Positions 4,259-33,373 of a stretch of DNA of 33,373 bases are shown in pieces (position 1 is the first letter of the stretch; the number at the start of each line of letters is the position of its first letter). This DNA comes from Bacillota bacterium (GTDB taxonomy: Bacteria > Actinomycetota > Aquicultoria > Aquicultorales > Aquicultoraceae). A program made the position numbers and the translations under genes. The notes under the pieces are model-generated. The model worked only from the letters and a program-made list of their open reading frames with translations. It was not told the origin of the DNA and ran no database searches. The DNA lies in assembly GCA_023511485.1 (NCBI GenBank), contig JAIMBH010000027.1:1-33373 (forward strand), read 5' to 3'.

Positions 4259-4269
4259 AAACCTTCGGG

Positions 4270-9085: not shown

Positions 9086-9090
9086 ATTTA

Positions 9091-15753: not shown

Positions 15754-16041
15754 AACTCCTCCATTTCAGGTGATTACAAACACTCTACTTAACCTTACAA
15801 ACCCATATCTTATAACAAATAGGGCAATATCGCCAGAAACGGCAAAAATTGCCTCCACAATAATCAATTTTACGGGAAACCACTTTTAGCTGCAAGAAAA
15901 GGCCCGGTACGCGATTTTAAAACTAACCGCTTTAACTACTTTAGTAAGCTAGCTTCATAGTTGAAGTGCCGCTTAAGTAGCAGTAAAATGTTATTTAATA
16001 TCAATGAAGCAGTATCAGGTAAAGCAATCGCCGTAGGATCA

Positions 16042-16446: not shown

Positions 16447-16777
16447 CTAGCACATAACAGGGTATAAAGACACCACCAAGGCTGGCAATCTGCTAACCCC
16501 ATTCTTACTCCTAGCTACTTCGCATTAAGAGAAACTCCTTTGAAGCAGAAGGTTGTAATTAAGCCATATCATGTAAGATAATCTAACCATAGGATAAGCC
16601 ATCCTGCCGCTAAACCCCAGCCGTTTGGGGAATACATTAATTGTCCGTATATGCCGGTGCTTCTTCAAGCAAGCAGTGACGCACCACGAGACGGCGTTGG
16701 CAAAGTTCTAAAAATAACCGCTCGCAGCTTTTAAGGCTAAAGGCAACTTAGTAAATCCTGAACAAGGTTGGAAGACA
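16447..16777. other. 331-bp gap upstream of the glycosyltransferase
   Basis: No gene. The plus strand contains a short hairpin CCCCAGCCGTTTGGGG (about 16615-16632) and further G+C-rich inverted pieces (for example near 16650-16700). It may be a structured 5' leader of the glycosyltransferase transcript, but I match no riboswitch consensus. Confidence 0.35.
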
Positions 16778-17776
16778 ATGAGGAGCAACCAGAAAATTGA
16801 GAATCCTTTAATATCGCTGGTTATCCCTGCATACAATGAAGGGTTAAGTTTAAGATCTAATCTTTTTGTAATCCGCGATTTTGCGGAAAAAAGCGGCGTT
16901 GATTACGAGGTAATTGTTGTTGATGACGGCTCAACTGACAGCACCTGGGATGTCTGTATGAATATCTCTAAAGAGTGGCCTAAAATGAGGGGATTAAGGC
17001 TTAGCCGCAATTTCGGGAAAGAAGCGGCTATCCTCTGCGGTCTTAAAGACACCCGAAGCGACGCCGTAATAATTATGGACAGCGACCTACAGCATCCCCC
17101 TGAGTTGATACCCAAGATGGTAAAGCTCTGGCTTGAAGGGGGATACCACATTGTCGAGGCGCATAAGAAAAGCCGCGGAAAAGAACTTTTTTTGCGAAGA
17201 TGGTTTGCGCAAGGATTTTACTCACTGATGCGGTTTCTATCCGGCTTTGACCTTGCCGGAGCGGCGGATTATAAGCTTTTGAGCCGGGATGTAGTGGATG
17301 CCTATATCAACATGCCGGAGACAAACAGGTTCTTCAGAGGGCTTGTTGCCTGGCTTGGCTTTAGTAAGACGGCGATACCTTTTGATATACCGGCCAATGC
17401 TGTAAGGTCATCAAGATGGTCGCTTCGCAAGCTAATCAAGCTGTCCTTTAGTGCAATAACTGCATTTTCATACATTCCACTTCAGTTAATAACCGTCGTA
17501 GGATTTATAACCTTCCTGTTCAGCTTTGCACTTATCCTTCAGACGCTTTATATGAAGTTTTCAGGCCATGCCGTAGAGGGATTTACGACCGTTATCCTGG
17601 CTGTACTTTTTACCGGAAGCGTTACCATGCTCAGCCTCGGTATAATTGGAGCTTACCTAGCAAGGATTTACGAGGAGCTCAAAAGAAGGCCGAACTATGT
17701 TGTTATGGAAAGAGTCGGTGACGAATCAAGCCAAAAAAGCGCCGGCGCAAGAAGAACTCTCAGGTCTTTACGGTAA
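16778..17776 (+). CDS. GT2 polyprenyl-phosphate glycosyltransferase (GtrB/DPM-like)
   Basis: A 332-residue inner-membrane glycosyltransferase that likely moves a hexose from a nucleotide sugar to polyprenyl phosphate. GT-A domain: LVIPAYNEG near residue 15, VVDDGSTDST near 48, LSRNFGKEAAI near 74, and metal-binding DSDLQHPPEL near 100. Two C-terminal membrane helices (about 228-255 and 262-292), as in GtrB, end in a basic tail. ATG 16778 has GGTTGGAAG upstream. The following gene is a large multi-span membrane protein that could use the lipid-linked sugar. Sugar identity cannot be told from sequence. Confidence 0.9.
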   Translation: MRSNQKIENPLISLVIPAYNEGLSLRSNLFVIRDFAEKSGVDYEVIVVDDGSTDSTWDVCMNISKEWPKMRGLRLSRNFGKEAAILCGLKDTRSDAVIIMDSDLQHPPELIPKMVKLWLEGGYHIVEAHKKSRGKELFLRRWFAQGFYSLMRFLSGFDLAGAADYKLLSRDVVDAYINMPETNRFFRGLVAWLGFSKTAIPFDIPANAVRSSRWSLRKLIKLSFSAITAFSYIPLQLITVVGFITFLFSFALILQTLYMKFSGHAVEGFTTVILAVLFTGSVTMLSLGIIGAYLARIYEELKRRPNYVVMERVGDESSQKSAGARRTLRSLR

Positions 17777-17906
17777 AAATTAAAATATTATTGCTTATAA
17801 AACTGGTGTAGTTCTTAAAAGTGCGCCCCAAGAGGCGCCACTAAAACTGAGCCCTTGGGAAAATATTTGGGTATTTATATCCAAAGTAAATAAAGGAGGG
17901 GCGATT

Positions 17907-20117
17907 ATTTTTTACCAGCTAACCGTTAAGGGTAAAGATAAATTTGCGCAGTACATAACTTGGCTTGGGTTTGCTGCAATTTATGCCTTGCTTCTTTATT
18001 ATTTCAAGCCAACATTAATTTTCACGGCGACTACGACAGCCGGAGGAGATACTGGCTCGCACCATTATATCGCCTACTATTTAATAAATCACCTTCTCCC
18101 CAAGGGTAAAATAACCGGGTGGTCCATGGGATGGTATGCTGGTTTCCCAATGCTTTATTTTTACTTCCCGCTCCCCTATCTTCTAATTGCGCTCCTTTCT
18201 ATCGTCATCAAATACGAGGTAGCCTTCAAGATTGTTACCATCTTGGGAACTTTTCTTTTGCCGTTAACTACATACCTTGCCGCCAAGGCGCTTAAATTTA
18301 AATTTCCGTTTCCTATAATTGCAGCCGCTTTTTCTCTGCCATTTCTTTTCATGGAGAGCTATTCGATTTACGGCGGCAACATCCTAAGTACGCTTGCCGG
18401 TGAGTTTGGATACAGTCTGAGCTTTGCCCTTGCAATACTTTTCTTGGCGCTTCTTTACCGCGATATTGAGGAACAAAAATTCAGGATCTCAACCGGGGTC
18501 CTGCTTACGGCCGTAGCTCTTTCGCACATCATACCGTTGATCATGGTTGTTCTTTTCTCAACTTATTTCTTGGCCAGACGGCCGAATTTAAAATGCTTTG
18601 GCATATTAGCCGGCGTATTTGGGACCGGTCTTCTGCTCAGTGCTTTCTGGGGCATTCCGCTCGTTGCAAGAATAGGATATACCGCCCACATGAATTGGAA
18701 CCAGCTCAAAGGCCTTGCCGAGGCTTTTCCTGCTCCGGTCAGACCCTTCCTGGTCCTGACTGCAATCGGCATCGCTGGGTCAATCATCAAAAGAGACAGG
18801 CGGATGAATTTCATATTATGGGCAACGGTAGTCACAGAGTCGCTTTTTTTCCTGCTACCCGACGGCCGGTTATGGAATGGCAGGATTGTGCCGTTCCTCT
18901 ACTACTTCACATTTATCTGGGCGGGCTACGGGTTATGGGTCTTGCGCCAATTCTTGGCCCGAATTTTTTACGAGTACATGCTTCTGCCAAAGCGTTACGC
19001 CGAATATGTGATTGCCGCAGTTGCGGTCACCGCCGTCCTATACAATATATTTAGCTCAAGCCAGGTAGCAAGTACGTGGATTAAATGGAATTACTCTGGA
19101 TATGAGGGAAAGGAAAACTGGTCGAGTTTTAAAGAGATAAATGACTATATTAAGAACCTTCCGCCTGGGCGTGTCATGTGGGAGCACTCGTCAAAAACTG
19201 ATGCGCTTGGTACACCGCGCGCCTTTGAACTTCTCCCTTATTTTACAGGCCACCCCTCCATGGAGGGTCTGCTCGTTGAGGCCGCATTTTCCGCACCGTA
19301 TCACTTTGTGAACCAGGACGAGCTATCAAAGCAGCCAAGCTGCGCAATCCAGGGTGTGAACTATCCCGGGCTCAACATCCCAAACGGGATCAGGCACCTT
19401 AAGCTATATAACGTGCGCTACTTTATTGCCGTCTCAAGCGAGGTAAAGGCCGGGCTAAAAAAAGAGCACGGCCTAAAACAGCTTAAAGTCTTTAAAGTCC
19501 CCAATACCGATCTTGAGTATGCGCTCTTTGAGCTTAAAACCGATGGATATGTCACTATCCCTAAAAACCAACCCCTTTTAGTCAAAACAGAAGACTGGAA
19601 TAAAACAGCACTTGCCTGGTATGAGAGGCCCGAGCTCTTAGACACCCCGCTAATTGATGCAGGCAGGGTAAAGGGGCTTGAGAAAAAATTTGGGTACGCC
19701 GACCCAGGCCTTAAGCGATTAGAAAGCACCCCGCTTGAGACAAAAGGCTCAGTAACAGGCGTCAAAGTTACTGACGATGAGGTAAAGTTTTCGACAACTG
19801 CCATCGGCGTTCCGCATCTGGTCAAGGTATCCTACTTTCCCAATTGGAAGGCAAAGGGTGCCGATGGGCCGTATCTTGCCTCGCCCTCGCTGATGATAGT
19901 AATACCGAGGCAAAAGAACGTAACTCTCTACTTCGGAAACACGGCCGTTGAAACAGCAGGTAAATCCATGTCAATTGCAGGGTGGCTGCTGGTTGCCATA
20001 TATGGGGCAGTGCTTTTCAGACGCAGGCTTAAACTAACAAGTGAGTCAAAAATATACGGAGCCCACCAAGGAGAAAAGGTAACGCCTGCAATAAAACAAA
20101 AGGAGGACAGCGCTTAA
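17907..20117 (+). CDS. Large multi-span membrane protein, PTPS-related/glycosyltransferase-like
   Basis: About 736 residues with roughly 10-12 membrane helices up to about residue 390, then a soluble extracytoplasmic part and a final helix near the C-terminus (MSIAGWLLVAIYGAVLF). The N-terminal GGDTGSHHYIAYYL and GWYAGFPMLYFYFPLPYL match the layout of PF10131 (6-pyruvoyl-tetrahydropterin-synthase-related) membrane proteins, which resemble GT-C glycosyltransferases; the acidic residue after the first helix would be catalytic. The annotated-type start is TTG 17988 inside a helix and without a ribosome site. The frame is open upstream and AAGGAGG at 17893-17899 points to ATT at 17907 (or 17904), giving a normal first helix. 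It follows the GT2 gene. Confidence 0.75.
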   Translation: MFYQLTVKGKDKFAQYITWLGFAAIYALLLYYFKPTLIFTATTTAGGDTGSHHYIAYYLINHLLPKGKITGWSMGWYAGFPMLYFYFPLPYLLIALLSIVIKYEVAFKIVTILGTFLLPLTTYLAAKALKFKFPFPIIAAAFSLPFLFMESYSIYGGNILSTLAGEFGYSLSFALAILFLALLYRDIEEQKFRISTGVLLTAVALSHIIPLIMVVLFSTYFLARRPNLKCFGILAGVFGTGLLLSAFWGIPLVARIGYTAHMNWNQLKGLAEAFPAPVRPFLVLTAIGIAGSIIKRDRRMNFILWATVVTESLFFLLPDGRLWNGRIVPFLYYFTFIWAGYGLWVLRQFLARIFYEYMLLPKRYAEYVIAAVAVTAVLYNIFSSSQVASTWIKWNYSGYEGKENWSSFKEINDYIKNLPPGRVMWEHSSKTDALGTPRAFELLPYFTGHPSMEGLLVEAAFSAPYHFVNQDELSKQPSCAIQGVNYPGLNIPNGIRHLKLYNVRYFIAVSSEVKAGLKKEHGLKQLKVFKVPNTDLEYALFELKTDGYVTIPKNQPLLVKTEDWNKTALAWYERPELLDTPLIDAGRVKGLEKKFGYADPGLKRLESTPLETKGSVTGVKVTDDEVKFSTTAIGVPHLVKVSYFPNWKAKGADGPYLASPSLMIVIPRQKNVTLYFGNTAVETAGKSMSIAGWLLVAIYGAVLFRRRLKLTSESKIYGAHQGEKVTPAIKQKEDSA

Positions 20118-20118
20118 G

Positions 20119-20772
20119 TTGCCACTCTTTAGCCTAAGGAGCAATGAACCTAGAAAGTTAGCGGAATCTACAAAGCTTAATCCCGAACACGTAAAGTGGC
20201 TCGAGGAACAGATAGCTTTTCACGGTAGCGTGTTGCCAGAAAATTTCCTGGTTATCGACATGTGGAAGCATCCCGCATGCAGTGGTTTACTTGCCCTTGA
20301 TCAAAAGGCATCTTTGGCCGTCCTGCTGATTGCTAGCCGCTCCCCCCACCCGAAGTGGATCGAAGATGCCGCCGATTTTGCCTGGCAGATGCGCTATGCA
20401 AGCTATGCTGACTTGGACGAGGCAACTAAGCAATATTTAGCAAGCCATGGGGTATCCGGCGTTGATTTATCTGAGCTACATCAGCAGCATTTCGCAATCA
20501 ATAGGCCTCTAAAAAGATACCGATTTAACCAAAACCAGAGGGTCTTATTACTGGCCCCTGAGTTTTTGCAGGACGCTATTGAAAAAATCAGCTGGCGCAG
20601 GTTCGAGATAGATATCGAAGGATATATAGTAAAGTTTATAAAGAACGACTCAAGAGATGATTTCTTACACGTCGAGCCTGCTGGGTTTATGGAAACCGGA
20701 AAGATAGCCCTGCTTGCCTCAACTATTGCAAGCTACCCTTCTTCGATTACTAGAAGATGGATTAGGATTTAA
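20119..20772 (+). CDS. Possible inactive PD-(D/E)XK-like protein
   Basis: 217 residues, TTG start one base after the previous stop, with AGGAGG 12 nt upstream. The layout (MPLF start; a strand ALDQKASLAVLLIASRS; RVLLLAPEF; then a terminal strand FEIDIEGYIVKFI) resembles a family of small PD-(D/E)XK nuclease-like proteins. In those, the first strand carries RPD and the second an ExK. Here the equivalent spots read CSG and LLIAS, so catalytic residues appear lost. This is inference from recalled patterns. It could be an unrelated protein. Cotranscribed with the membrane protein upstream. Confidence 0.5.
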   Translation: MPLFSLRSNEPRKLAESTKLNPEHVKWLEEQIAFHGSVLPENFLVIDMWKHPACSGLLALDQKASLAVLLIASRSPHPKWIEDAADFAWQMRYASYADLDEATKQYLASHGVSGVDLSELHQQHFAINRPLKRYRFNQNQRVLLLAPEFLQDAIEKISWRRFEIDIEGYIVKFIKNDSRDDFLHVEPAGFMETGKIALLASTIASYPSSITRRWIRI

Positions 20773-20825
20773 GTTCAGGATTCATGGAGTGAGGGTAAGG
20801 AATGTGGGTATGCTCTTGATGACTT

Positions 20826-20878
20826 GAAGTACCAAGGTGCCAAAGCCGTAAATGGGCGAATTGGCACCTTGGTACTTC
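20826..20878. terminator. 18-bp perfect inverted repeat between convergent genes
   Basis: 20826-20843 is exactly complementary to 20861-20878 with a 17-nt loop, between the end of the plus-strand gene and the end of purA. A bidirectional terminator is the likeliest role. There is no poly-T tract, so a small inverted-repeat element is also possible. Confidence 0.55.
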
Positions 20879-20883
20879 TAGGC

Positions 20884-22158
20884 TTATCTTAAAATCGTCT
20901 GCATCCTATTAGGTCCAACAGAGATCATTGCTATCGGCACTCCGGTCAGCTCTTCGATCCGGCCAATATAAGCACGAGCCTGTTTGGGCAGTTTCTCGTA
21001 TGATGTTATGTCGCTTATATCAGTCATCCAGCCTTCCATCTCCTCATAAACGGGGGTACACTTATGAAACGTGCTCTGGTGACTTGGCATGTGCTCATAG
21101 ACCACACCGTCGTGCTTATAACCAACCGCTATTCTTACCGTCTCAAACTGTGAGAGCACATCCAACTTTGTGAGCGCTATCTCGGTTAGCCCGTTTAGCC
21201 TTACCGCATATTTTAGAATAACCGCATCGAGCCAACCACAACGGCGCGCCCGCCCGGTTGTGGTACCAAACTCGCAGCCAACTGAGCGCATTGCCTCACC
21301 GATCTCATTGTCTTGCTCAGTCGGGAACGGCCCAGAGCCCACCCGTGTCGTGTATGCTTTAACAATACCGATAATTCTCTTAATCTTCGTCGGGCTAATT
21401 CCTGCTCCAACACAGGCGCCGCCGGCAATCGGTGATGAAGATGTGACAAACGGGTATGTCCCGTGATCGATATCGAGCATGGTGCCTTGGGCACCTTCTA
21501 GAAGAACGTTTTTGCCGTCATCGAGCGCCCTGTTAATTACAAAACTTGTATCACCAATCATGCCCTTTAATCTGTCAGCGTAGAGAGTGTACTCATCGAC
21601 AACTTGGTCAAGATCAACCGGGTCCATACCGTAGATCTTGGTTAAAACCTGGTTCTTAAATTCAAGCGCCACGCCAAGCTTCTCGCGAAATATCTTCATG
21701 TCTTGCAAATCCTGCATACGAAGCCCGACCCTTGAGGCTTTATCTGTATAGCATGGGCCGATACCTAAACCGGTTGTCCCAATCTTTGATTTGCCAAGTT
21801 TGACTTCAGCCGCCTGATCCAGCAACCTATGGTACGGCATAATAAGATGTGCGTTCGAGCTTATAACAAGGTTGGGTTCGGAGATGCCTATTGCCTTTAC
21901 CTGGTCCAGCTCTTCTATCAATGCTTTCGGGTCAATAACAAGCCCGTTTGCGATAACCGAAGTAATATGCGGGCGCAGTATGCCTGATGGCAGGAGATGC
22001 AGTTTTAACTCGTGGCCCTCAGCAATAACTGTGTGGCCCGCATTATGCCCGCCCTGGTAGCGGACAATCATGTCCATATCGTTTGCAAGCCAGTCGGTTA
22101 CTTTTCCTTTGCCTTCGTCCCCCCACTGCGTCCCTATAATAACTGTTGCAGGCATCAT
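20884..22158 (-). CDS. purA: Adenylosuccinate synthetase PurA
   Basis: Converts IMP, GTP and aspartate to adenylosuccinate, the first step to AMP. 423-424 residues. Signature IGTQWGDEGKGKVTDWLA near residue 8 with the catalytic Asp, then RYQGGHNAGHT near 33-43 (catalytic His), and DVLSQFETVRIAVGY in the guanine-binding region. ATG ATG tandem start (22158/22155) with AGGAGG just upstream overlaps the stop of the FAD gene (AAATGATG), so translation is coupled. PurA sits apart from the main pur cluster. Confidence 0.97.
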   Translation of the reverse strand: MMPATVIIGTQWGDEGKGKVTDWLANDMDMIVRYQGGHNAGHTVIAEGHELKLHLLPSGILRPHITSVIANGLVIDPKALIEELDQVKAIGISEPNLVISSNAHLIMPYHRLLDQAAEVKLGKSKIGTTGLGIGPCYTDKASRVGLRMQDLQDMKIFREKLGVALEFKNQVLTKIYGMDPVDLDQVVDEYTLYADRLKGMIGDTSFVINRALDDGKNVLLEGAQGTMLDIDHGTYPFVTSSSPIAGGACVGAGISPTKIKRIIGIVKAYTTRVGSGPFPTEQDNEIGEAMRSVGCEFGTTTGRARRCGWLDAVILKYAVRLNGLTEIALTKLDVLSQFETVRIAVGYKHDGVVYEHMPSHQSTFHKCTPVYEEMEGWMTDISDITSYEKLPKQARAYIGRIEELTGVPIAMISVGPNRMQTILR

Positions 22159-23540
22159 TTCCTCCTAGATATCAACTCAAGTATAGCCCGTGCGGCGACA
22201 ATACCGCTTGCCGAAGATTGCATAAGCCCTCTGGTTACTCCGGCACCATCACCTATAGCATACAGGTTTTTGATCTCAGTCTCTAATGCCGGTGTGAGTT
22301 TAAGCCTTGATGAGTAGAACTTAACCTCAACACCGTATAAAAGCGTATTTCTGGAGTTTACTCCCGGGGCAAGCTTATCCAGTGCCGAGAGCATCTCCTT
22401 AATATCTGCGATATAGCGGTACGGCAGCACAAAGCTCAAATCCCCCGGTGTAGCCTCAGCATATGTCGGCACTGTTGTGCCCCTTGCAATCCGTTCAGGA
22501 GTTGAGCGGCGCCCATCCATCAAGTCGCCGAGTCTTTGTACAATTACTCCACCTCCTAAGAGGTTTGCAAGCCGTGCGATGTACTTTCCGTATGCTATCG
22601 GCTCCTTGAATGGCTCGGTAAAAGTAGTGCTGACCAGAAGTGCGAAGTTAGTGTTATCCGTCTTCTTCTCGGCATAGCTATGCCCATTTACTGTTGCTAT
22701 CCCATCGGTTGATTCCGATGCGACAACGCCGTACGGGCAGACACAAAAAGTCCTTACCTTATCCTGAAACGACTTTGTTGTATAGATGAGCTTGGGTTCG
22801 TAAAGTTCTTTGGTCAGCGGCTCCATAACAACTGCCGGTACCTCAACACGCACACCAATATCGACTGCGTTGTTAACGGGGACAAGTCCCAGCCTTCTTG
22901 CCTCAGTATTGAGCCAATCGGCCCCCTCTCGTCCCGGGGCGACGATGATATAATCCGCCGTTATTTCTTCGCCGCTAGCAGTCAGAACACCGGCAGCACG
23001 ACCGTTTTTTACGAGAATGTTGGCAACTTTTACGCCTGTTCTGATGTCGATATGTGGCGTAAGCCGCTCTTTCATCGCTTTTAGGATATCGTTGCTGCGA
23101 TCCGTACCCAGGTGGCGCACCTTCTGAGGTATAAGCCTCATTTCCGCAAGTGCCGCTTTACGCTGCAGATGGCTTATCTTCTTCTCGTCTACCCCATGCA
23201 CCACGTCGGTTGCTCCGAATTCCCGATAGACGCTATCGACGTATTCTATAAGGTTAGCCAGTTCACTAACGCCAACATAATCGGCAAGCCAGCCGCCGAT
23301 TTCGGTCGATAGAGTTAGCTTGCCGTCACTGAATGCACCCGCCCCTCCCCAGCCAGAAGTGATTCGGCAGGGCTTACAGTGGGCACATTTGCCGGTGGTT
23401 CTCTCAAAGCATTTTCTTTTTTCAATATCCGGCCCCTTCTCCAGAATAATCGCTTTTAGCTTGCCCTTCTTAATAAGCTCAAGGGCGGCAAAAATACCGG
23501 CGGGACCGCTTCCCACAATGATGACATCGTAATCTGCCAT
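22155..23540 (-). CDS. FAD-dependent dehydrogenase, COG2509 type
   Basis: 461 residues. Rossmann motif DVIIVGSGPAGIFAALEL at 4-21. Then a Cys-rich stretch KCFERTTGKCAHCKPCR followed by SGWGGAGAFSDGKL near residue 62-75, and a second FAD-contact motif YAIGDGAGVTRGLMQSSASG near the C-terminus. These mark the uncharacterised FAD-dependent dehydrogenase group (COG2509, related to BaiN/HI0933). The four nearby cysteines could bind metal or form a redox pair. ATG 23540 has AAAGGTGAT 5 nt upstream. Translation is coupled to purA, but the family has no established purine role. Confidence 0.88.
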   Translation of the reverse strand: MADYDVIIVGSGPAGIFAALELIKKGKLKAIILEKGPDIEKRKCFERTTGKCAHCKPCRITSGWGGAGAFSDGKLTLSTEIGGWLADYVGVSELANLIEYVDSVYREFGATDVVHGVDEKKISHLQRKAALAEMRLIPQKVRHLGTDRSNDILKAMKERLTPHIDIRTGVKVANILVKNGRAAGVLTASGEEITADYIIVAPGREGADWLNTEARRLGLVPVNNAVDIGVRVEVPAVVMEPLTKELYEPKLIYTTKSFQDKVRTFCVCPYGVVASESTDGIATVNGHSYAEKKTDNTNFALLVSTTFTEPFKEPIAYGKYIARLANLLGGGVIVQRLGDLMDGRRSTPERIARGTTVPTYAEATPGDLSFVLPYRYIADIKEMLSALDKLAPGVNSRNTLLYGVEVKFYSSRLKLTPALETEIKNLYAIGDGAGVTRGLMQSSASGIVAARAILELISRRK

Positions 23541-23914
23541 CGAAAATCACCTTTTGCGCACAAAAAAACTCAAACAGAAGGCTTCGGAGGCTCCCTTAAA
23601 CCCTGCCGTCCATCTGAGCCAATGCGCTTTAATAATAATTTATCAATACTTTATCAACAATTTGCCTGCACAAGTACCGTGCAGGCGCTCAACCAATCAA
23701 ACTATAAAGCTTACGTGCTATAAAGCACGCGTGCCTTTGTGAAATTTCTGCGATTTCCGCCTGAAAACGCAAACCAAGTGCGTATTTAGCATAGCCAAAC
23801 GGCCTGCTAAAGTCAAGAAAAGCCCAGTCTAATACTAACTAAGAAATCTTTTGAGTTCGGTGATTATCCGTTCTCAATTTCCAGTGCTTATAAAATACTA
23901 AGCAAACGGGAATA
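23541..23914. other. 374-bp intergenic region with one strong hairpin
   Basis: No gene is supported. A perfect stem GCCTGCAC/GTGCAGGC (23664-23671 with 23679-23686) and a smaller CGTGC/GCACG pair near 23713-23730 are visible. TATAAA near 23890 could be a -10 for the DUF2769-like gene, without a convincing -35. Confidence 0.4.
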
Positions 23915-24229
23915 ATGGGAGCGATGCCAAAAGTCGACTTTAGCGTGGATAACTTAAATAAATGCCTTTGCCCATCCTGCCCTGTAGAGGGGTCAAGCGA
24001 CTGCGCAAATGAAAGGATGGAAAAAGAGCAAGTGCCGAAAGATACGTCTCAGATATCTAACCCAAAATTACTGGTTAGATTATACTGTTCAATCGGAGCA
24101 ACTGACTGCGGTGGCTTTGACGGGCTTCTTCCGTGTGTTTGTCCAAGTTGTCCGGTTTGGGACGGCTGTGAACTAACATCGCGTTACTACTGCTTACGCG
24201 GGGATGCCGATGAGGTTGATATGGTTTAA
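23915..24229 (+). CDS. Cys-rich DUF2769-like protein
   Basis: 104 residues with two CxCPSCP clusters: CLCPSCPVEGSSDC near 18-31 and CVCPSCPVWDGCE near 79-91, plus further cysteines. This is the pattern of DUF2769, a small putative metal- or Fe-S-binding family found in anaerobes and methanogens. Cytosolic; no signal or membrane segment. Start 23915 or the second ATG at 23924; neither has a strong ribosome site. It is 104 bp upstream of the gluconate-2-dehydrogenase-like pair and might carry electrons for them, which is a guess from position. Confidence 0.75.
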   Translation: MGAMPKVDFSVDNLNKCLCPSCPVEGSSDCANERMEKEQVPKDTSQISNPKLLVRLYCSIGATDCGGFDGLLPCVCPSCPVWDGCELTSRYYCLRGDADEVDMV

Positions 24230-24333
24230 GTGCCGAAATCTTGATGTGCCGAAGCACTAAGGTCTTTTACAGGCTACGGAATAGATTTTTGACATCTTGG
24301 AGTACTGGCATCTCTGGCATAATTTGGGGTTAA

Positions 24334-24918
24334 ATGAAATTTGATGTACTGTCGTGGAAAAACCATTGGGACAAAGCGACAAGAGAGGTAATTGAAAAGC
24401 GCATTGCCACTGTGCCACAGCAAAACTTCTTTGGCGAGGACGAGCTATCTATTGTCGCAAAGATCATCGAGGCAATAATTCCCGGCGTCCATGAGAACAT
24501 ACCAATAAAAGAGATATTGGGCCGCGAATTACAGAACAGCGGAAAAAAAGGCGTGCGGCTGATCGAGCTTCCCTGGAAGCCCGAGATGTATAAAAAGGGT
24601 CTCTCCTTCCTAGAGAAAGAAGCAGAGGCTGAATTTGGCAAAAGCATCACTGAGTTGACTTTTGATGAAACAACCAGGCTGCTTGAAAGTTTATCTCAAG
24701 GAGAGACAAAAGCAGATGTCTGGGAGTTTCCGGCAGAGCTGTTCTTTCAAACACTGGTGGCAGACATCACGGCGATTTACGCCTCCTTCCCTCACGCCTG
24801 GAACGAGATGGAGTTTGCTGGCCCAGCTTACCCCTACGGTTATTATCAGCTGGGTTGCGATGAGAGGATGAAGTACGAGCCCGAGCTCGGAGAGAAAAAC
24901 AATGGATGGGAAATTTGA
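24334..24918 (+). CDS. Gluconate 2-dehydrogenase subunit 3-like protein
   Basis: 194 residues matching the small-subunit family (PF13618) that accompanies GMC dehydrogenases: an IPG segment near residue 50, FFQTLVADITAIYASFPHAWNEMEF near 140-164, and GPAYPYGYYQLG at 167. Members chaperone or anchor the flavin subunit and are often Tat-exported. No twin-Arg signal peptide is visible here (start MKFDVLSWKNHWDKA), so the complex is probably cytosolic. It overlaps the GMC gene by 17 bp, implying coupling and a shared complex. Confidence 0.85.
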   Translation: MKFDVLSWKNHWDKATREVIEKRIATVPQQNFFGEDELSIVAKIIEAIIPGVHENIPIKEILGRELQNSGKKGVRLIELPWKPEMYKKGLSFLEKEAEAEFGKSITELTFDETTRLLESLSQGETKADVWEFPAELFFQTLVADITAIYASFPHAWNEMEFAGPAYPYGYYQLGCDERMKYEPELGEKNNGWEI

Positions 24919-26473
24919 TATTTTAATTATCGGAACCGGCGCGGCGGGCTCGGTGCTTGCTGGACAACTTGCCGAGGCCGGGCTATCCGTCATCTGCCTT
25001 GACGCCGGTCCCTATTGGGACCCTAAAAAAGATTGGGTCTCCGATGAGTGGGAGATGCGAAAGCTCTTTTGGGACTGGCCGCGAGTCAACGCATCGGCTG
25101 GCGAGAACCGAATCGGCATCGGTACGTCAACTTCGGGCAAGGCAGTAGGCGGCGGCACCATCCACTATACTATGATGGCGCTTCGCCTGCATCCATCTGA
25201 TTTTAAGACAAAAAGTTTGGACGGCGTCGGAGTGGATTGGCCTATAACTTACGACGACCTCGCCCCCTATTATGACTTTATCGAGCGTGAACTGCCTGTA
25301 GCCGGACCTGAGGATTGGCCTTGGGAAGGCAAAGGAAATTACCCCCAGCCCGAGCACCAAACCGACTGCCAGGCAGATAAATTTATTGAAGGCTGTGAAA
25401 AGCTTGGCATCAGGTCAGCAGTATGCCCGCTGGCGATGGTGACCGCATACTATAAAGACCCATGGGGTTTTAAGAGAGAGCCCTGCACTAACCGAGGTTT
25501 TTGCCACGAGGGATGCAAACCAAATGCCAAGTCGCACGCGCTGCTTAACTTTATCCCAAAGGCTAAGAAATACAATGCCGAGATAGTCCCCAACGCCTAC
25601 GTGACTAAAATCCTTACCGACAAAAACGGCAAAGTAAGCGGCGCTGAGTTTGTTAGAAATGGTGCCACTCAGTGCATCAATGCGAAAATAGTAATCCTCT
25701 CTGCCTTTGCAATAGAGACGCCGAGGCTTCTTTTTGTGTCAAAAAACATCGACTTTCCGGACGGGCTTGCCAACTCATCAGGTGTAGTCGGCAGGTATTT
25801 GATGGTTCACTCTGACCATCTCGTCTACGCAAAGTTTCCCAAGCCAGTTCGCATGTACCGCAACCCGCCAACAACTGTTATCACTCAAGACTTTTATGAA
25901 ACCGACCCAAAGAACAGTTACAAGCGAGGTTTTTCCATCGGCCCTTACTCAGGCCGGCCAATTGATTTCGTTAATCTTGCAGTCAACTCAAGACGCGACC
26001 TCTGGGGCAAAAGACTGCTTGACTTCATGAAAGACTATAACTATTACATGAGAAACGGAATTATCGGCGAAGTCTTACCCAACAAAGAAAACCGAATCGA
26101 GCTATCCGATGAGATTGGCGAGTTCGGTATGCCTATCCCGATTATCTATTTTAAATACGGCGATAACGATAGAAAGCTGATCGAGCGTGGCCTTAAAATA
26201 TCTAAGGATATTATGAAGGCTGCCGGTGCGATCGAAACCTTCCCTGCCCCGGCATCAGCTCACCTTATGGGAACCTGCCGCATGGGAGGCGATCCAAAGA
26301 CATCCGTTGTCAATTCATACGGGCAGTCGCATGACATCCCAAATTTGTTTATTGCCGGCACACCAATCTTTGTGACCTCAGGCGCAGCCAACCCGACCCT
26401 GACAGCCCAGGCACTGGCAGTAAGAGCGGCAGAATATATCGTTAAGCAGATGAAGGAGGGCGATGGTCTTTGA
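24902..26473 (+). CDS. GMC-family FAD oxidoreductase (large subunit)
   Basis: 523 residues. FAD-binding ILIIGTGAAGSVLAGQLAEA at 6-25, GKAVGGGTIHYTMM near 78-92, C-terminal catalytic HLMGTCRMGG near 458 and the FAD-contact end SGAANPTLTAQALAVR. The segment PCTNRGFCHEGCKPNAK near 198-214 carries three cysteines like those of the alpha subunit of gluconate 2-dehydrogenase and FAD-glucose dehydrogenase, where they hold an Fe-S cluster. Start 24902 has GGAGAG 6 nt upstream. It likely oxidises a sugar or polyol with the upstream subunit, but no cytochrome partner is nearby. Substrate unknown. Confidence 0.9.
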   Translation: MDGKFDILIIGTGAAGSVLAGQLAEAGLSVICLDAGPYWDPKKDWVSDEWEMRKLFWDWPRVNASAGENRIGIGTSTSGKAVGGGTIHYTMMALRLHPSDFKTKSLDGVGVDWPITYDDLAPYYDFIERELPVAGPEDWPWEGKGNYPQPEHQTDCQADKFIEGCEKLGIRSAVCPLAMVTAYYKDPWGFKREPCTNRGFCHEGCKPNAKSHALLNFIPKAKKYNAEIVPNAYVTKILTDKNGKVSGAEFVRNGATQCINAKIVILSAFAIETPRLLFVSKNIDFPDGLANSSGVVGRYLMVHSDHLVYAKFPKPVRMYRNPPTTVITQDFYETDPKNSYKRGFSIGPYSGRPIDFVNLAVNSRRDLWGKRLLDFMKDYNYYMRNGIIGEVLPNKENRIELSDEIGEFGMPIPIIYFKYGDNDRKLIERGLKISKDIMKAAGAIETFPAPASAHLMGTCRMGGDPKTSVVNSYGQSHDIPNLFIAGTPIFVTSGAANPTLTAQALAVRAAEYIVKQMKEGDGL

Positions 26474-26476
26474 ACA

Positions 26477-27442
26477 TTATTTCGGGCCCTGGGAGAAGTT
26501 TTGTCCTTCCTTCATCTGCCTGACCAGCTCATCTTTTGCTGAGTTGTCCGGAAACACATAACTGACCCCTTTTAGCATTCCCGTTTTGCCGGGCACTGTT
26601 GCCATTTGCAAGTCTAGCTGAGGGTCGGTAAAGTTTTTGCCCAGTGCAATTATTTTAGCTATATCCATATTAGTCCTGGTATACGACGCGCCGATTGAAG
26701 CGAGTCTCGGGATATCCGTATATGAGTTTAACGTCTGCTTCATGACCTCACGTATGAACTGCTGTTGATGCTTTATGCGGGTAAAGTCACCATCCGGATA
26801 ACTGCGCACACGAAGAAGCCCCAGGATCTCTTTGCCATCTCTTTTAAGATTGCCAAACCTCACCTTTGACCCGCTTAACTTATCTACCCACACATTAGAG
26901 CCAGAAGATACCGTTTGATTTTTGCCATTGATCCAGCTTGAGTCGACGTTAAAATAAATTCCTCCCACGGCATCGACCATCTCGCTAAAACCCTGAAAAT
27001 CGACTTGGAAATAGTAATTTATCGGTAAACCGGTAAAGTCTTCAACTGTTTTTATAAGCAGCGGAGCCCCACCAAAAGCAAATGAATGGTTAATTTTATC
27101 AAGACCATGCCCCTCGATCGCAACCCGGGAATCCCTGGGAATAGACAGCAGGTGCATCCTTTTGCTTTCGGTATCGACCCTAAGAACCATAATAGTGTCG
27201 GCACGGGAAACTGACCAATCAGGCCGCCTATCTGTACCGACCAAAAGGACATAAAAAGGAGCGTTATCTGTCGGCTTTTTTATTACCTTACCTACCGCTT
27301 TTACCTCTTTTGGGGGCAGCTTCATCTTTTTCTCGAGATTTGCCATAAACATATAAGAAGCAACTGCAACGGCAACAGCCGCAATAACCAGTACGAGAGC
27401 CGCTATCCTAAAAATCTTCAACAGCAATTGTTTTTTATCCAC
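26477..27442 (-). CDS. LytR-CpsA-Psr (LCP) cell-envelope transferase
   Basis: 321 residues from GTG 27442 (GGAGG about 10 nt upstream); a GTG at 27463 is an alternative. One N-terminal membrane helix (IAALVLVIAAVAVAVASYMF) then the LCP domain: LVGTDRRPDWSVSRADTIMV with the conserved D/R positions, LSIPRDSRVAI, DKINHSFAFGG and VDAVGG. LCP enzymes attach undecaprenyl-linked polymers to peptidoglycan, typical of Gram-positive-type envelopes. Its stop lies 4 bp from the GMC stop (convergent). Members outside Gram-positives exist, so this is only supportive of the host guess. Confidence 0.93.
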   Translation of the reverse strand: MDKKQLLLKIFRIAALVLVIAAVAVAVASYMFMANLEKKMKLPPKEVKAVGKVIKKPTDNAPFYVLLVGTDRRPDWSVSRADTIMVLRVDTESKRMHLLSIPRDSRVAIEGHGLDKINHSFAFGGAPLLIKTVEDFTGLPINYYFQVDFQGFSEMVDAVGGIYFNVDSSWINGKNQTVSSGSNVWVDKLSGSKVRFGNLKRDGKEILGLLRVRSYPDGDFTRIKHQQQFIREVMKQTLNSYTDIPRLASIGASYTRTNMDIAKIIALGKNFTDPQLDLQMATVPGKTGMLKGVSYVFPDNSAKDELVRQMKEGQNFSQGPK

Positions 27443-27463
27443 CAGCAGAAAACCTCCATACAC

Positions 27464-27681
27464 ATTATACCACTAGCAAAATTGCTTGTGACAATAGCGG
27501 CAAATGGATCGGCAAGCATTAACAGTAGCAGCAAATGGACAGCGGCATGCTCTTATATGTTTATGCTTATACCCCAAGCTAGCAGAATGCTTTCACATGT
27601 TTACGCTTTTTGCCTCATTAGGCATCATTTCACCTGCTCAAAGCACTGCCCGGTGCCTGTCACCTGATCTATATAACACCA
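27464..27681. other. Non-coding region left of the CRISPR array
   Basis: No gene supported. Contains a perfect TGCCT-CATT-AGGCA hairpin (27611-27624), a REP-like GGTGCCTGTCACC (27652-27664) and degenerate AAATGGA/ATGTTTATGC-type repeats. On the leader-distal side of the array, so it is trailer sequence rather than CRISPR leader. Confidence 0.45.
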
Positions 27682-27866
27682 CCCTTTTCAAGCACACTTT
27701 GAAAAGTGATTTTCTTACCCGCAAATGATTATTACAGAGCGTGGACAATTTCACGGTTTCAATCCCGTTTCCGGTATAAGTGATTTTCTTACTTCTTATA
27801 ATGAGCGGAGGGCACTCTAGTGGAGACGCGTTTCAATCCCGTTTCCGGTATAAGTGATTTTCTTAC
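27682..27866 (-). CRISPR. Remnant CRISPR array: two full repeats, one degenerate
   Basis: Identical 37-nt repeats lie at 27756-27792 and 27830-27866 (GTTTCAATCCC start, GATTTTCTTAC end on the plus strand). Spacers are 27719-27755 and 27793-27829, both 37 nt. A third unit at 27682-27718 keeps the right-hand 15 nt only, the pattern of a decayed leader-distal repeat. On the minus strand the repeat ends ATTGAAAC, the usual 5' crRNA tag of type I-B/III arrays, so transcription is probably leftward and the leader lay to the right, where sequence is replaced. No cas gene is present. Confidence 0.88.
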
Positions 27867-29205
27867 AGTCTTTCTCGACTGCTGTCTGCAGTTCCGAGCT
27901 TACCATCGCAAATCCGCCGTCACCGGTGAAACACACGACCGGCTTGTTCGGTTCAACCAACTTCGCCGCAATGGCTCCCGGCAAACCAAAGCCCATGGTC
28001 CCCAGTCCATTGGACACGAAATATGTCTTTGGAGAGTACGCACTCCACAACTGACCCAGGAGGACCTTGTGCGATCCCGTATCCGTGACAACCAGCGTAT
28101 CCTCCGGCAAAACCTCCCGTGCTGCGCGGACCACGCGAGATGGCAGGATTCCCGGCAGCTGTGCCACAAGGTCGGACTCTAACTCCACTCGAAAGCGTCG
28201 CACGTCTTCCTCACGCCATTTCGGGCCTGGAACGGGATGCTTCGCCAATCCTTCCAGCAAACCGCAAACATTAGACATGACCTCAACCTCTGCACCGTAA
28301 GCACAATCCATATCTGGTACCAAATCCACATGAATCACAGGCACGTCAATCGTCCACGCCCCGATGAGTTCCACAGGGTCAAAACATATCGCGACAATCA
28401 GGTCGCACTCATTGAGGAATTGCCGGATCCGCTTGGCACCCGCCATGTCTATGACACCGCACCAGTACGGGTGTCTCTCGTCCAATACCCCTTTCGCCTT
28501 GACGCTCGTCACCACTGGGATGCCCCAGGCCTCCACAAATGATCTCAACGCGTTGGACGCATGGTTCCGAATGGTACCCGGTCCCACCAATGCCACGGGA
28601 CGCCGGCTCTCGTTCAAGCGGAGAATCAATTCATCCGGCTGTTCCACAGTCCCGTAGATTACCGTTTGTGCCAGCTTGTCATATCTTTCCGGTAACGGAT
28701 TGACCGGTTTTTTCGGTTGATCGCTGGGAAGATCCAGGTGAACCGGTCCCGGTCTTTCTGCCTTCGCAATTCTGACGGCCTTCCGGATATCAAATGCACC
28801 ACTCTCTGCCGTCAAGGTCGTACTCCATTTCGTGACATGTTCAAATAAGCTGACCTGAGGCAACCTCTGATGCACACTCCGGCTCTCCCGCAAGGAAGGG
28901 CGACCCGTAATCGCAATCATCGGCGACCTGTCGAGATAGGCATGCGATACCCCGTTCACGAGGTTCGTGGCCCCGGGTCCCAGGGTGGCGAGTACGACAC
29001 CAGGAGCATCGCTCAGGTCACCCGTCATGGCCGCCATGTACGCCGCCGACCACTCTGCTCTCGTCAGAACAAAATCTACCCCTTGCTTGTGTGCTTCTTC
29101 CATGACATCCAATGTGGCTCCACCCGGATAGCCAAAAATCCGTTTCACACCTGTGTTTTTCAAAACCGTCACCATATGCTCGGCCAGTGTTGTCAATGAC
29201 TCCAT
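27817..29205 (-). CDS. ThDP-dependent enzyme, acetolactate-synthase-like, C-terminus lost at CRISPR junction
   Basis: The authentic part ends at about 27867, residue 446: N-terminal ThDP (Pyr) domain with FGYPGGATLDVM near 24-35 and catalytic Glu51 (LTRAEWSAAYMAA), central domain, and the start of the PP domain with GDGGF (428-432) then ELQTAVEKD. The remaining 16 residues come from the CRISPR repeat read backwards. About 100 residues, including the metal-binding Asn of the GDG-N motif, are missing, so the product is inactive. Start 29205 (ATG) or TTG 29196 with AGGAG. Likely a 2-oxo acid decarboxylase or carboligase in the GalB/LigK operon. Whether the break is real or an assembly join is unknown. 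Confidence 0.8.
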   Translation of the reverse strand: MESLTTLAEHMVTVLKNTGVKRIFGYPGGATLDVMEEAHKQGVDFVLTRAEWSAAYMAAMTGDLSDAPGVVLATLGPGATNLVNGVSHAYLDRSPMIAITGRPSLRESRSVHQRLPQVSLFEHVTKWSTTLTAESGAFDIRKAVRIAKAERPGPVHLDLPSDQPKKPVNPLPERYDKLAQTVIYGTVEQPDELILRLNESRRPVALVGPGTIRNHASNALRSFVEAWGIPVVTSVKAKGVLDERHPYWCGVIDMAGAKRIRQFLNECDLIVAICFDPVELIGAWTIDVPVIHVDLVPDMDCAYGAEVEVMSNVCGLLEGLAKHPVPGPKWREEDVRRFRVELESDLVAQLPGILPSRVVRAAREVLPEDTLVVTDTGSHKVLLGQLWSAYSPKTYFVSNGLGTMGFGLPGAIAAKLVEPNKPVVCFTGDGGFAMVSSELQTAVEKDCKKITYTGNGIETRLH

Positions 29206-29332
29206 CTCCTCTGCAAGTTGTAACTTACCTTCGCACCTTTCTAAGCGCTATCCAAAATTTCGTGGACGAGGCGCTGCAATCACAAATGGAAGAAAGGTCA
29301 CTGCATTGCGATTAGACGTCGCCACATTGCGG

Positions 29333-30220
29333 TTAATCGAGTTGGACGTCTCCTTCTGCCAAACGAAACGCTCTCAGCACGTCCCTGTACGACGGAAGCT
29401 CGTCTGGCATGGAAGCCGCTTGCTCTCTCATCTGCGCACCCCACTCCAATCGTTGTGCCACGCCACGAGTGACCCAAGCTTCCGCGCCGAGCTCCTCAAC
29501 GGTCCGAATCGCTTCTTGAGCTTCATGTGCACGGCGCCGGCCGTGAACCCAGTGCCTTCTCAACAGATAATCGCCCATGCCGGAAAGACTCATGCTGCCA
29601 AACGACGCGTCCAGGGATGCTAATACTTGTTCCGCTACCCCTGCCCTGTCTGCGGCGACCAGTGCCTCCAGAAACAGAGCCTCAAGCCCTTTGACGATCA
29701 CGCTGCGGCACATCTTCAGCACTGCCGAGGCACCAACCGGGCCCTGGATCACCTGAATGTTCATGTGATAAGGGGACAATCGTTCATGCAGACGGGCTGC
29801 ACCCGGGCCATCCGCAACCATGGGAACCTTATGCCGGAGCGGAGGAACCGCGGACATTACCGCCACACTGGCATACTCCACCTCAGGCGCCACATTTTCC
29901 AGCATCTCGTAAATCTCACGCTTGGTTCGCGGTGAACAAGAATTGAGATCCGCGTAGACCGTCCCTGGCCGCAGGTACGGAGCGATGTCTTGCGCCACGT
30001 TGAGCGCCACAGATGCCGTTACCATGGACAATATGACGTCTGCCTGACGTGCAAGTTCTTCCTTGCTCGTCACCAAATGGGCATGAATCGCCTCCGCGCG
30101 TGACTGTACGATGGGTGTGTCGGCGACGTCATATGCGACGATGTCCGCCACGCCCTCCTGCTTAAGCCCCGCCGCGATCGCAGACGCCGCTTCTCCAAAG
30201 CCAATGAATCCGATGCGCAC
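29333..30220 (-). CDS. NAD(P)-dependent dehydrogenase with DUF1932 domain
   Basis: 295 residues. Rossmann start MRIGFIGFGEAASAIAAGL; beta-hydroxyacid dehydrogenase-type core (VILSMVTASVAL, YADLNSCSPRTKREI); C-terminal helical DUF1932 domain with the catalytic-type Lys in ASAVLKMCRSVIVKGLEAL near 181-200. These enzymes relate to 3-hydroxyisobutyrate and 6-phosphogluconate dehydrogenases. ATG 30220 starts 3 bp after the aldolase stop. In an operon with a GalB-like hydratase and LigK-like aldolase it probably oxidises or reduces a hydroxy/oxo acid intermediate. Substrate unknown. Confidence 0.85.
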   Translation of the reverse strand: MRIGFIGFGEAASAIAAGLKQEGVADIVAYDVADTPIVQSRAEAIHAHLVTSKEELARQADVILSMVTASVALNVAQDIAPYLRPGTVYADLNSCSPRTKREIYEMLENVAPEVEYASVAVMSAVPPLRHKVPMVADGPGAARLHERLSPYHMNIQVIQGPVGASAVLKMCRSVIVKGLEALFLEALVAADRAGVAEQVLASLDASFGSMSLSGMGDYLLRRHWVHGRRRAHEAQEAIRTVEELGAEAWVTRGVAQRLEWGAQMREQAASMPDELPSYRDVLRAFRLAEGDVQLD

Positions 30221-30223
30221 CCC

Positions 30224-30922
30224 TCATTCCTCCCATTCGCCGTAACGGACATATTGCACACCGAGTGCCTTCAACTTTTCGCGGAGACCATAGATGTCTA
30301 ATCCCAGCTCTCCCGCTGCCAGCCGTGCCCGTGTCTCCTCTTCTCGCGTCGCGCGCGCCTCCGCCTGAGCCAACACCTTTGGAATCGCCCGCCGGGGTAC
30401 ACACACGACGCCATCGCCATCAGCGACAATCACGTCTCCCGGTCGTACCAGTGTCCCGCCGCACACCACCGGTACGTTTACAGAACCAACTGTCTCTTTC
30501 ACCGTCCCACTCGCCGAAACAGAGCGCGACCAGACAGGGAACTGCATCGCGGTGAGCGTATCCACGTCCCGCACCCCAGCATCCATCACCAGTCCAACCA
30601 CTCCATGAGCCCGGGCGGAAGTAGCCAACAGCTCTCCGAACATGCCGTCCATTGATGGGGCAGCGGTCGCCACGACCAGCACATCGCCAGGCTGACAAAC
30701 CTCAATGGCGGCATGGACCATCAGGTTGTCGCCGGGATGACACAGCACCGTCACCGCCGTGCCTGCTGCACGTGCAGTCGGGTAGATGGGGCGGAGATAA
30801 GGTTGCATGAGACCGGATCGACCCATCGCTTCATGCAAAGTGGCAACCCCGTAGGTACCCAGCCGCTCTACATCCGACATTTCGGGCCGCGGTACATCGG
30901 TTACAATCACGCGCCGCGTCAT
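30224..30922 (-). CDS. RraA-fold aldolase, LigK/GalC-like
   Basis: 232 residues, RraA-like class II aldolase. GELLATSARAHGVVGLVMDAGVRD near 95-118 includes the substrate/metal G-x-R-D loop, and GDVIVADGDGVVCVP near 163-177. The tail GELGLDIYGLREKL is typical of 4-carboxy-4-hydroxy-2-oxoadipate (CHA) aldolases, which split CHA to pyruvate and oxaloacetate and can also decarboxylate oxaloacetate. Its ATG overlaps the PIG-L stop (ATGA), giving strict coupling to the hydratase that makes CHA. This supports the assignment over a ribonuclease-regulator RraA. Confidence 0.87.
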   Translation of the reverse strand: MTRRVIVTDVPRPEMSDVERLGTYGVATLHEAMGRSGLMQPYLRPIYPTARAAGTAVTVLCHPGDNLMVHAAIEVCQPGDVLVVATAAPSMDGMFGELLATSARAHGVVGLVMDAGVRDVDTLTAMQFPVWSRSVSASGTVKETVGSVNVPVVCGGTLVRPGDVIVADGDGVVCVPRRAIPKVLAQAEARATREEETRARLAAGELGLDIYGLREKLKALGVQYVRYGEWEE

Positions 30923-31635
30923 ACGAACTCACCCCCGACCGTTGGATACACGCGCTGGTACGCCTCGGCATACACGATTGCCTGGCCGGAGTTACGTCCG
31001 GCCTGCACGCCGCGGCGCTTCGCAACATCGGTGTAGTAGGCCCACAGGTGCTCTTGGGCGGCCATGCACTCCATTGCCTGACGCTTTTTCTCAAACACTG
31101 ACGTGATGTCGAGCAACAGGTCGATCCGGAATCCGCACTGTTCCGGTTGATGCGGCTCATACAGAAAGACCTGCGGAGCCCCAATCACGGGATACTGCGA
31201 CGGATATCCGTGCGCCTGCGCGAGAATGCGGGTCTCCAGCACCAGCTGCGTTGTCCGCGGATGGTCCGCGTTGTACGGGTCCTGCAGGGAATGCGTCAAG
31301 ATCACGTCCGGCCGATGAATCCGGAACTCCTGCACCAGGGCATCCCTCAATTCGCGGGTGACCTCGAGCGGATAGTCCCCCGCATCCAGAAACCGCACCT
31401 CTGCTCCAAGAATGGCAGCAGCTTGTTCTGATTCTGAGCGACGGATCGCCTTGATCTCTTCGAGTGTCTTCCCATCCTTCCACAGCCGCGCTGACTCCCC
31501 TCGCTCGCCGAAGGACAAGCACAACACGCGGACATTCCAGCCACGTTCCGCGTACAGCGCGATGGCTCCGCCCGCCCGCCACACGAAATCCGCCGCGTGC
31601 GCACTGACGACCATCAGCGTTCCAGGATGTTTCAT
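30919..31635 (-). CDS. PIG-L family hydratase, GalB-like (4-oxalomesaconate hydratase)
   Basis: 238 residues of the LmbE/PIG-L fold. The N-terminal VVSAHAADFVWRAGGAIAL and LSFGERGESARLW, and the later FLYEPHQPEQCGF and AAQEHLWAYYT closely match what I recall of Pseudomonas GalB, a Zn-dependent 4-oxalomesaconate hydratase, rather than sugar deacetylases. The usual AHPDD is AHAAD, as in GalB where it is AHSAD. H-x-x-H-type ligands: YNADHPRTT near 125. It would convert 4-oxalomesaconate to CHA, the substrate of the next gene. ATG 31635. Confidence 0.82.
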   Translation of the reverse strand: MKHPGTLMVVSAHAADFVWRAGGAIALYAERGWNVRVLCLSFGERGESARLWKDGKTLEEIKAIRRSESEQAAAILGAEVRFLDAGDYPLEVTRELRDALVQEFRIHRPDVILTHSLQDPYNADHPRTTQLVLETRILAQAHGYPSQYPVIGAPQVFLYEPHQPEQCGFRIDLLLDITSVFEKKRQAMECMAAQEHLWAYYTDVAKRRGVQAGRNSGQAIVYAEAYQRVYPTVGGEFV

Positions 31636-31663
31636 GTCATCGTCGCCCCCCTTGCTCGTTTAC

Positions 31664-32575
31664 TCACACCTCGACGAGTTGCGCCGGGTTGTCAACCATC
31701 ATCCGCCGCACGCCCTCCCGCGGGAATCCGGCCTCAATCAGCCGGGACGCAAAGTCGGCCAGCCCCTCAACTACAGGGGGATTGGTCTTCTGGCCGAGAT
31801 CGGACGAAAGCAGAGTCCTGTCCGGTCCGACCGCCCGAACGGCAGCAAACAGCGTTTCCCATGAGCATTTTCCCGTGTAGAAGGTGGTATAGCAGTGCTC
31901 TATGTAGGCACCCATTTCGGCAAGCCGTACCTGGTCGTCGACAGAGAGTCCTTCGGACGGGAATAAGGCGTGCGTCACCACCACTCGCCGGACACCCGCT
32001 TCGCGCGCGGCGGCGACGACGGCGTAAATCTCATGGCGGGCCAAGTGTCCCGTAGCGAGGACCATATCATACTCCGCGACAATCTCCAGGCAGGTACGGA
32101 CTTCGGACCGCAACTGTCCTGTCTCGTCCAGGGCGGACAGCGGCGGCGGCGCGAATCCTTTGCCACGGATTTCACTTTGAATCTTCGCCCAGAATGGTTG
32201 ATGCCGCTCACCGCGTTGCGCCTGTCGATCCGGACTTTCGTTTGCAGCATCCACAGTGGGCAGCCACACCACACGCGCACCTGCCCGCCCCGCGACGTCC
32301 ACCACAACCGGGTTGAAACCACCACAGGTGTGGTTCAGTGCCACGGCACCGATCACGTGGACACCGGGCACCGCTGCGGACACCACTTTGGCCCGTTCCA
32401 CTGTTGGAAAGTAGTGTGACTTGAGCACGAATCCCTTCCATCCTAAGGCCACAAATTCACGGGCGAGAGAAAGATCGTCCGTCCTGCGCGCAATCAGGTC
32501 GGGCTCGATGTGCAAGTGGGTGTCATAGGCTCCGGCCAGAAGACGGACAATGTCTTCATCTCGTACATGATTCAA
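31664..32575 (-). CDS. DUF6282-like amidohydrolase-fold protein
   Basis: 303 residues from TTG 32575 (GAGGTG 6 nt upstream); GTG 32584 or an upstream frame to 32641 are alternatives, but the latter would cover the putative operator. Metal-site motif YDTHLHIEPD near residue 18, lysine in KGFVLKSHYFPT (possible carbamylated Lys), histidines in ATGHLARHEI and VVTHALFP, and the C-terminal metal Asp in LLSSDLGQ. This pattern fits DUF6282, a TIM-barrel metal hydrolase. In this operon it may open a lactone or cyclic intermediate, as LigI does for 2-pyrone-4,6-dicarboxylate, but that is inference. Confidence 0.75.
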   Translation of the reverse strand: MNHVRDEDIVRLLAGAYDTHLHIEPDLIARRTDDLSLAREFVALGWKGFVLKSHYFPTVERAKVVSAAVPGVHVIGAVALNHTCGGFNPVVVDVAGRAGARVVWLPTVDAANESPDRQAQRGERHQPFWAKIQSEIRGKGFAPPPLSALDETGQLRSEVRTCLEIVAEYDMVLATGHLARHEIYAVVAAAREAGVRRVVVTHALFPSEGLSVDDQVRLAEMGAYIEHCYTTFYTGKCSWETLFAAVRAVGPDRTLLSSDLGQKTNPPVVEGLADFASRLIEAGFPREGVRRMMVDNPAQLVEV

Positions 32576-32608
32576 CGTGTTCACCTCAGTTCTTCCATGT
32601 TCGATGAA

Positions 32609-32641
32609 TTGGTCAACTTTTTTGTCAACAATTTGGTCCAA
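32609..32641. promoter_or_regulatory. Putative operator/promoter of the catabolic operon
   Basis: Between the GntR stop and the hydrolase start: the palindrome TTGGTCCAA (32633-32641) and two direct copies of GTCAAC (32612-32617 and 32624-32629, separated by a T-run), giving TTGACA/TTGACC -35-like hexamers on the minus strand. No strong -10 is visible. GntR-FCD proteins bind short palindromes such as TGGTNNNACCA; the match is only partial. Confidence 0.35.
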
Positions 32642-32655
32642 AATATGCGATGTGT

Positions 32656-33309
32656 TTAGAGTCTCACGTGCGTGCTGCGCAACACATCATGAACACGAGA
32701 AAGATGAATCTTCATCGCCGCCTCTGCGGAATCCGGGTCACGCGCCGCAATGGCACTCACGATTGTCGCATGTTCAGCGAGGGATTGGTCCGGCCGAGCG
32801 GGCGCCAGAATCGTTCGGTACTGAAAACGAACGGATTGAGAGTTTAACATGTCCAGAAGTCGCGTTGCCGTTTGATGACGTGACATTTCGGCAATTGCTC
32901 GGTGCAACGAGGCATTCCCTTCAGAATATCCGATGAGATCGCCGCGCTGTCGCTTGTCGCGCATAACCCCTAAGATGGTTTGCAACCGAAACACCTCTTC
33001 GTCGGTGCCTCTCTCAGCAGCATGCCGGACGATCAGACATTCCAGAGCCATCCGTACCTCAAGGATTTCGCTCGCCTCTTCAAGAGTCACCATTCGTACT
33101 CTTGCACCGCGGTAACGCTCACGTTCAACCAACCCCTCCTGTTCCAAACGGGCAAGCACGGTTCGAATGGTTGACCGACTCGCTCGGAATCTTCGGACCA
33201 GTTCCATTTCGATGAGTCGCTCATTGGGCATCAAAGCGCCTTCTACAATGGCACGCCGCAACTTTTGGTAACACTCATGTTCCGTCAGCCAATGCTCATC
33301 TGTTGACAT
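32656..33309 (-). CDS. GntR-family regulator, FCD (FadR) type
   Basis: 217 residues. Winged helix at about 10-75 (ERLIEMELVRRFRASRSTIR, then LARLEQEGLVERE), FCD effector domain at about 80-210 with the metal/ligand His pattern (NASLHRAIAEMSRH near 134, SLAEHATIVSAI near 178, MKIHLSRVH near 198). FCD regulators sense organic acids and usually repress adjacent catabolic genes. It is first on the minus strand, upstream of the hydrolase with a 70-80-bp gap. ATG 33309 has AAGGACGG upstream. The remaining 60 bp to the window end hold no gene. Confidence 0.92.
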   Translation of the reverse strand: MSTDEHWLTEHECYQKLRRAIVEGALMPNERLIEMELVRRFRASRSTIRTVLARLEQEGLVERERYRGARVRMVTLEEASEILEVRMALECLIVRHAAERGTDEEVFRLQTILGVMRDKRQRGDLIGYSEGNASLHRAIAEMSRHQTATRLLDMLNSQSVRFQYRTILAPARPDQSLAEHATIVSAIAARDPDSAEAAMKIHLSRVHDVLRSTHVRL

Positions 33310-33373
33310 CGAATCAACCGTCCTTGCTACGAAAAGGAGATATCTGAGTTCTTCTTCGTGATAGATTGTGATC

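Follow-up and report, generated by a model that had tools for sequence, protein, structure and literature searches.

The window analyzed here, 33,373 nucleotides in length, is the entire contig JAIMBH010000027.1 (C27) of a metagenome-assembled genome (MAG) that consists of 58 contigs and 2.37 Mb. Positions 1..27866 are host-genome DNA, with a purine biosynthesis operon, adenylosuccinate synthase, a GMC oxidoreductase and a LytR-CpsA-Psr protein, and close with the tail of a CRISPR array; a foreign segment, from 27867..33373, carries an interrupted ThDP enzyme gene and five further genes, all on the minus strand, and reaches the contig end. Two adjacent minus-strand ORFs at 892-1658 resemble, by eye, fragments of an IS110-type transposase.

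The array, read on the minus strand, comprises two exact copies of a 37-bp repeat (27756..27792 and 27830..27866; crRNA strand GTAAGAAAATCACTTATACCGGAAACGGGATTGAAAC) and a degenerate terminal copy at 27682..27718, in which the final 15 bp (27704-27718) alone are identical to the repeat. The copies are spaced at 74 and 74 bp and enclose unique spacers of 37 bp each (27719..27755 and 27793..27829, both on the minus strand). Given the degenerate copy on the left and a minus-strand repeat that ends in ATTGAAAC, the trailer lies to the left, and the leader is expected beyond 27866, on the right. Contig JAILZT010000044.1 (L104/L112) confirms this orientation: there the repeat, in the same orientation, follows cas1, cas2 and a leader of ~150 bp. 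The leader and cas genes therefore belong exactly where the foreign DNA starts; what stands to the right of 27866 is the ThDP gene. The repeat is absent from the rest of the MAG in a search allowing up to 3 mismatches. In scans of viral contigs, neither a 31-mer from each of the two spacers (exact matching) nor the repeat found a match.

The ThDP enzyme is acetolactate synthase-like and retains 446 amino acids, with codons running from 29205 down to 27868 (27868..29205, minus strand). Its N, central and C Pfam domains are all matched, the last incompletely: the alignment to TPP_enzyme_C reaches residue 445 and covers the profile only as far as position 71 of 151. Beyond residues 445-446 homology ceases, full-length homologues extend 84-96 residues further, and the reading frame continues into the repeat up to a stop at 27817-27819. 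A preliminary description of this DNA had put the C-terminal loss at about 100 residues; the loss stands, at the somewhat smaller size given by these homologues. No match to the protein at E <= 1e-60 was found in 10 other genomes of the host family, its best identity in a sample of the phylum is at most 44%, and a scan of the genome collection found no relative, an outcome put down to its patterns having been derived from this single sequence. The missing C-terminus was also sought elsewhere in the MAG, with roughly half of the genome searched, and the only matches, at 27-32% identity, belonged to another ThDP-type gene.

The five genes beyond it encode an NAD-binding dehydrogenase (NAD_binding_2 and DUF1932; 29333..30220), a LigK/RraA-like 4-carboxy-4-hydroxy-2-oxoadipate aldolase (30224..30922), a PIG-L family deacetylase (30919..31635), a DUF6282 protein (31664..32641) and a GntR/FCD transcriptional regulator (32656..33309). 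The order GntR-DUF6282-PIG-L-LigK-dehydrogenase is kept in 8 Bacilli genomes at 47-85% protein identity to the syntenic genes (47-60% for the dehydrogenase, 63-74% for the aldolase, 78-85% for the deacetylase, 62-72% for the DUF6282 protein and 57-69% for the regulator), and the same five genes occur in the same order and orientation on the Thermus oshimai plasmid pTHEOS01. The DUF6282 relatives at 63-72% identity lie in genomes of the same class as a Paenibacillus genome (G396), that is, Bacilli. Unlike the operons of the compared Bacilli genomes, near which no ThDP gene was found, that of the window has one next in line. Phage records produced no match to the right part, and viral scans produced none to LigK or to a 31-mer right of the junction.

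The two parts of the contig differ sharply in composition, as the preliminary description had noted for GC content and had proposed comparing by tetranucleotide profile. The tetranucleotide distance to the MAG is 0.083 for 1-27866 and 0.507 for 27867-33373, the latter compared with 0.18-0.25 to Bacilli genomes of 55-57% GC and with a maximum of 0.367 among pieces of the MAG (the most deviant after the right part, at 0.35-0.37, being C5 1-5000 and C22 5001-10000). GC content steps from ~0.47 to 0.58 at the junction; 5-kb pieces of the MAG average 0.452 +/- 0.019 and none is above 0.506, compared with 0.577 for the right part. In a sample of 104 other contig ends of the MAG, GC never exceeds 0.51, compared with 0.58 at the right end of C27. 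Under Markov models, every block of the left part is better explained by its own genome, and the Bacilli log-likelihood is positive throughout the right part, with a mean per base of +0.052 that falls within the range of Bacilli genomes (0.045-0.078) and above that of all 133 MAG pieces (at most -0.029). Codon use shifts in the same direction, with median GC3 rising from ~0.52 to ~0.62 (left genes mostly 0.46-0.56, one gene 0.33; right genes 0.54-0.72); the left genes are thus balanced at third positions, and their earlier characterization as A/T-rich there was overstated. Because of the conserved five-gene order and the tetranucleotide fit, the right part is most likely a Bacilli operon, for which the exact source species was not found. 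One candidate source, a Paenibacillus MAG in which the repeat of this array also occurs, was rejected, its ThDP matches being at most 33% identical and its composition different.

The boundary between the two parts can be placed at 27866..27867. The last exact repeat ends at 27866 and ThDP homology starts at 27868, which bears out the earlier reading that repeat passes into coding sequence within one base and leaves 27867 as the sole base that fits neither side for sure. A change-point scan that contrasted a Markov model of the MAG with another built on unrelated stretches of Bacilli genomes, and to which the position of the junction was not supplied, placed the best single break at 27875, with 27798-27912 within 3 nats. 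Host-family DNA gives way to Bacilli DNA, a change at the level of the phylum, precisely at the leader-side edge of a repeat, where a gene is cut and the leader and cas genes are missing.

What is missing can be seen in relatives. Within the genome collection, the repeat has a single exact match, on JAILZT010000044.1. On this 10.3-kb contig (1-10252), which is filed in a Paenibacillus MAG, the repeat adjoins a complete type III-A locus in the order cas10-csm2-csm3-csm4-csm5-cas6-Csx1/Csm6-like-cas1-cas2-leader-array. Its Cas10 shares 98% identity with one from a host-family genome and 82% with one from the host genus, and by composition the contig is closer to the host MAG than to the Paenibacillus MAG in which it is filed; judged on these sequence features, the contig is probably mis-binned. 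The possibility that it came from the same assembly as the MAG was rejected, the two having no contig ends in common. In a genome of the same genus (G126, contig C40), a repeat with 5 mismatches adjoins leader-cas2-cas1. Spacer length is similar in both loci, and both have the leader and cas2-cas1 to the right of the array, where the window instead has the foreign operon; their arrays also terminate contigs. The earlier suggestion that the leader and cas side had been lost is accordingly upheld, and we propose that the host's family has a native type III-A system to which this repeat belongs. The MAG itself lacks a type III-A Cas10, and its Cas1 genes number only two, both on contig C44 and one of them within a type I-C operon whose repeat differs. 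That operon and its array (32-bp repeat) occupy 1-8406 of C44, and a second set, cas1-cas2-cas4, accompanied by a WYL-like regulator, occupies 10437-14388.

Exact 77-bp overlaps link contig ends of the MAG into 13 groups. C27 overlaps in this way with C8 at its left end and has no partner at its right end. From our general knowledge of such assemblers, we take these overlaps to indicate a final k of 77, in which case a 37-bp repeat alone cannot cause a join and some k-mers across the junction must have existed. At the right end of C44 (14460-14640), low-complexity poly-A/T/G sequence lies directly beside cas1; it is likely a sequencing or assembly artefact and points to wrong contig extension elsewhere in this assembly.

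The preliminary description had left the choice between a chimera joined in a repeat and a real recombination event, with foreign DNA taking the place of the leader and cas side. We consider it probable that the contig is an assembly chimera joined at a branch point in the CRISPR array, and we infer that the join was made in the computer, or in the library, and not in a cell. Under this reading, 1-27866 would belong to the host MAG and end within the trailer end of the array, and 27867-33373 would derive from a co-occurring Bacilli bacterium. The assembly graph would branch exactly at the end of the repeat, the same repeat preceding different spacers or the leader, and the assembler would have run on at this branch into an unrelated Bacilli contig, so that the leader and cas side were dropped. 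The crossing would probably have been provided by a chimeric or low-coverage read, or by a spacer matching the ThDP gene. Several observations count in favor of a chimera: the foreign part starts in the middle of a gene and runs to a contig end that lacks a 77-bp overlap partner; no host-family genome has the ThDP gene, and the composition and gene order on the right are those of Bacilli, not of the host; and the relatives carry a leader, cas2 and cas1 at this place, with type III-A Cas10 and a third Cas1 lacking from the MAG. The window also resembles known misassemblies of short-read metagenomes at repeats, in that origin and composition switch abruptly at a short repeat, a gene is cut and the contig end is a dead end; it differs from them in that the join is base-precise at a repeat edge despite the 77-bp overlaps. 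Counted against a chimera are the junction k-mers that these overlaps imply, which are the main argument for a real molecule, and the fact that a random library chimera is not expected exactly at a repeat boundary.

A real junction, made either by recombination or by Cas1-Cas2 integration, seems unlikely to us. Recombination, taken by itself a little less likely again, would mean that a recent illegitimate event or gene transfer inserted the Bacilli fragment in the array, with loss of the leader and the type III-A cas genes. The contig is indeed uninterrupted in an assembly with 77-bp overlaps, and the MAG lacks a type III-A Cas10 despite a completeness score of 100%, as expected after loss of the locus; that absence, however, is equally explained by poor binning, given that a related locus sits in an unrelated MAG. 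Non-exhaustive inspection of the junction noticed no mobile-element end, integrase, tRNA or flanking repeat, the segment starts within a gene, does not return to host DNA before the contig ends and is wholly donor-like in composition, and the ThDP gene occurs in none of the 10 family genomes (0/10). No literature specific to this case was found.

The base-precise position and the junction k-mers would both be accounted for, by inference only, if the ~37 bp at 27867-27903 were a true spacer acquired from a Bacilli ThDP gene, from which the assembler crossed into the protospacer genome. This is a sub-case of the chimera, included in the likelihood given to it above, and is on its own improbable: no repeat stands at the next expected place, a 37-bp match should not merge at k=77, and the crRNA would carry the ThDP sense strand, so that a type III system could not use it to recognize the mRNA by base pairing.

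The leader-side end of a repeat is the normal site of attack in spacer integration, and the junction lies there to the base, as would follow from half-site insertion of a long DNA end by Cas1-Cas2 and subsequent repair; this is nonetheless very improbable, since the right side has no duplicated repeat or 36-37 bp spacer, the MAG has no Cas1 resembling the III-A one, and we know of no multi-kilobase Cas1-Cas2 insertion. It would be just as improbable that a CRISPR integrase had joined long foreign DNA to the repeat in the cell in place of the leader and cas genes, making the adaptation machinery a route of gene transfer.

The observation is real and the biology most likely ordinary: under the preferred reading of an assembly chimera, the join is an artefact to trim and not a new gene fusion. 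A real junction would offer a striking example of a CRISPR array with foreign DNA fused to it. If an artefact, the join matters for curation: left in place, it would assign to this MAG 5.5 kb of catabolic operon from Bacilli, including a LigK-type aldolase, and the array, which we propose to be the tail of a type III-A locus of the host's family, would be scored as an orphan. The case suggests that, in metagenome contigs, CRISPR arrays deserve inspection for chimeric joins.
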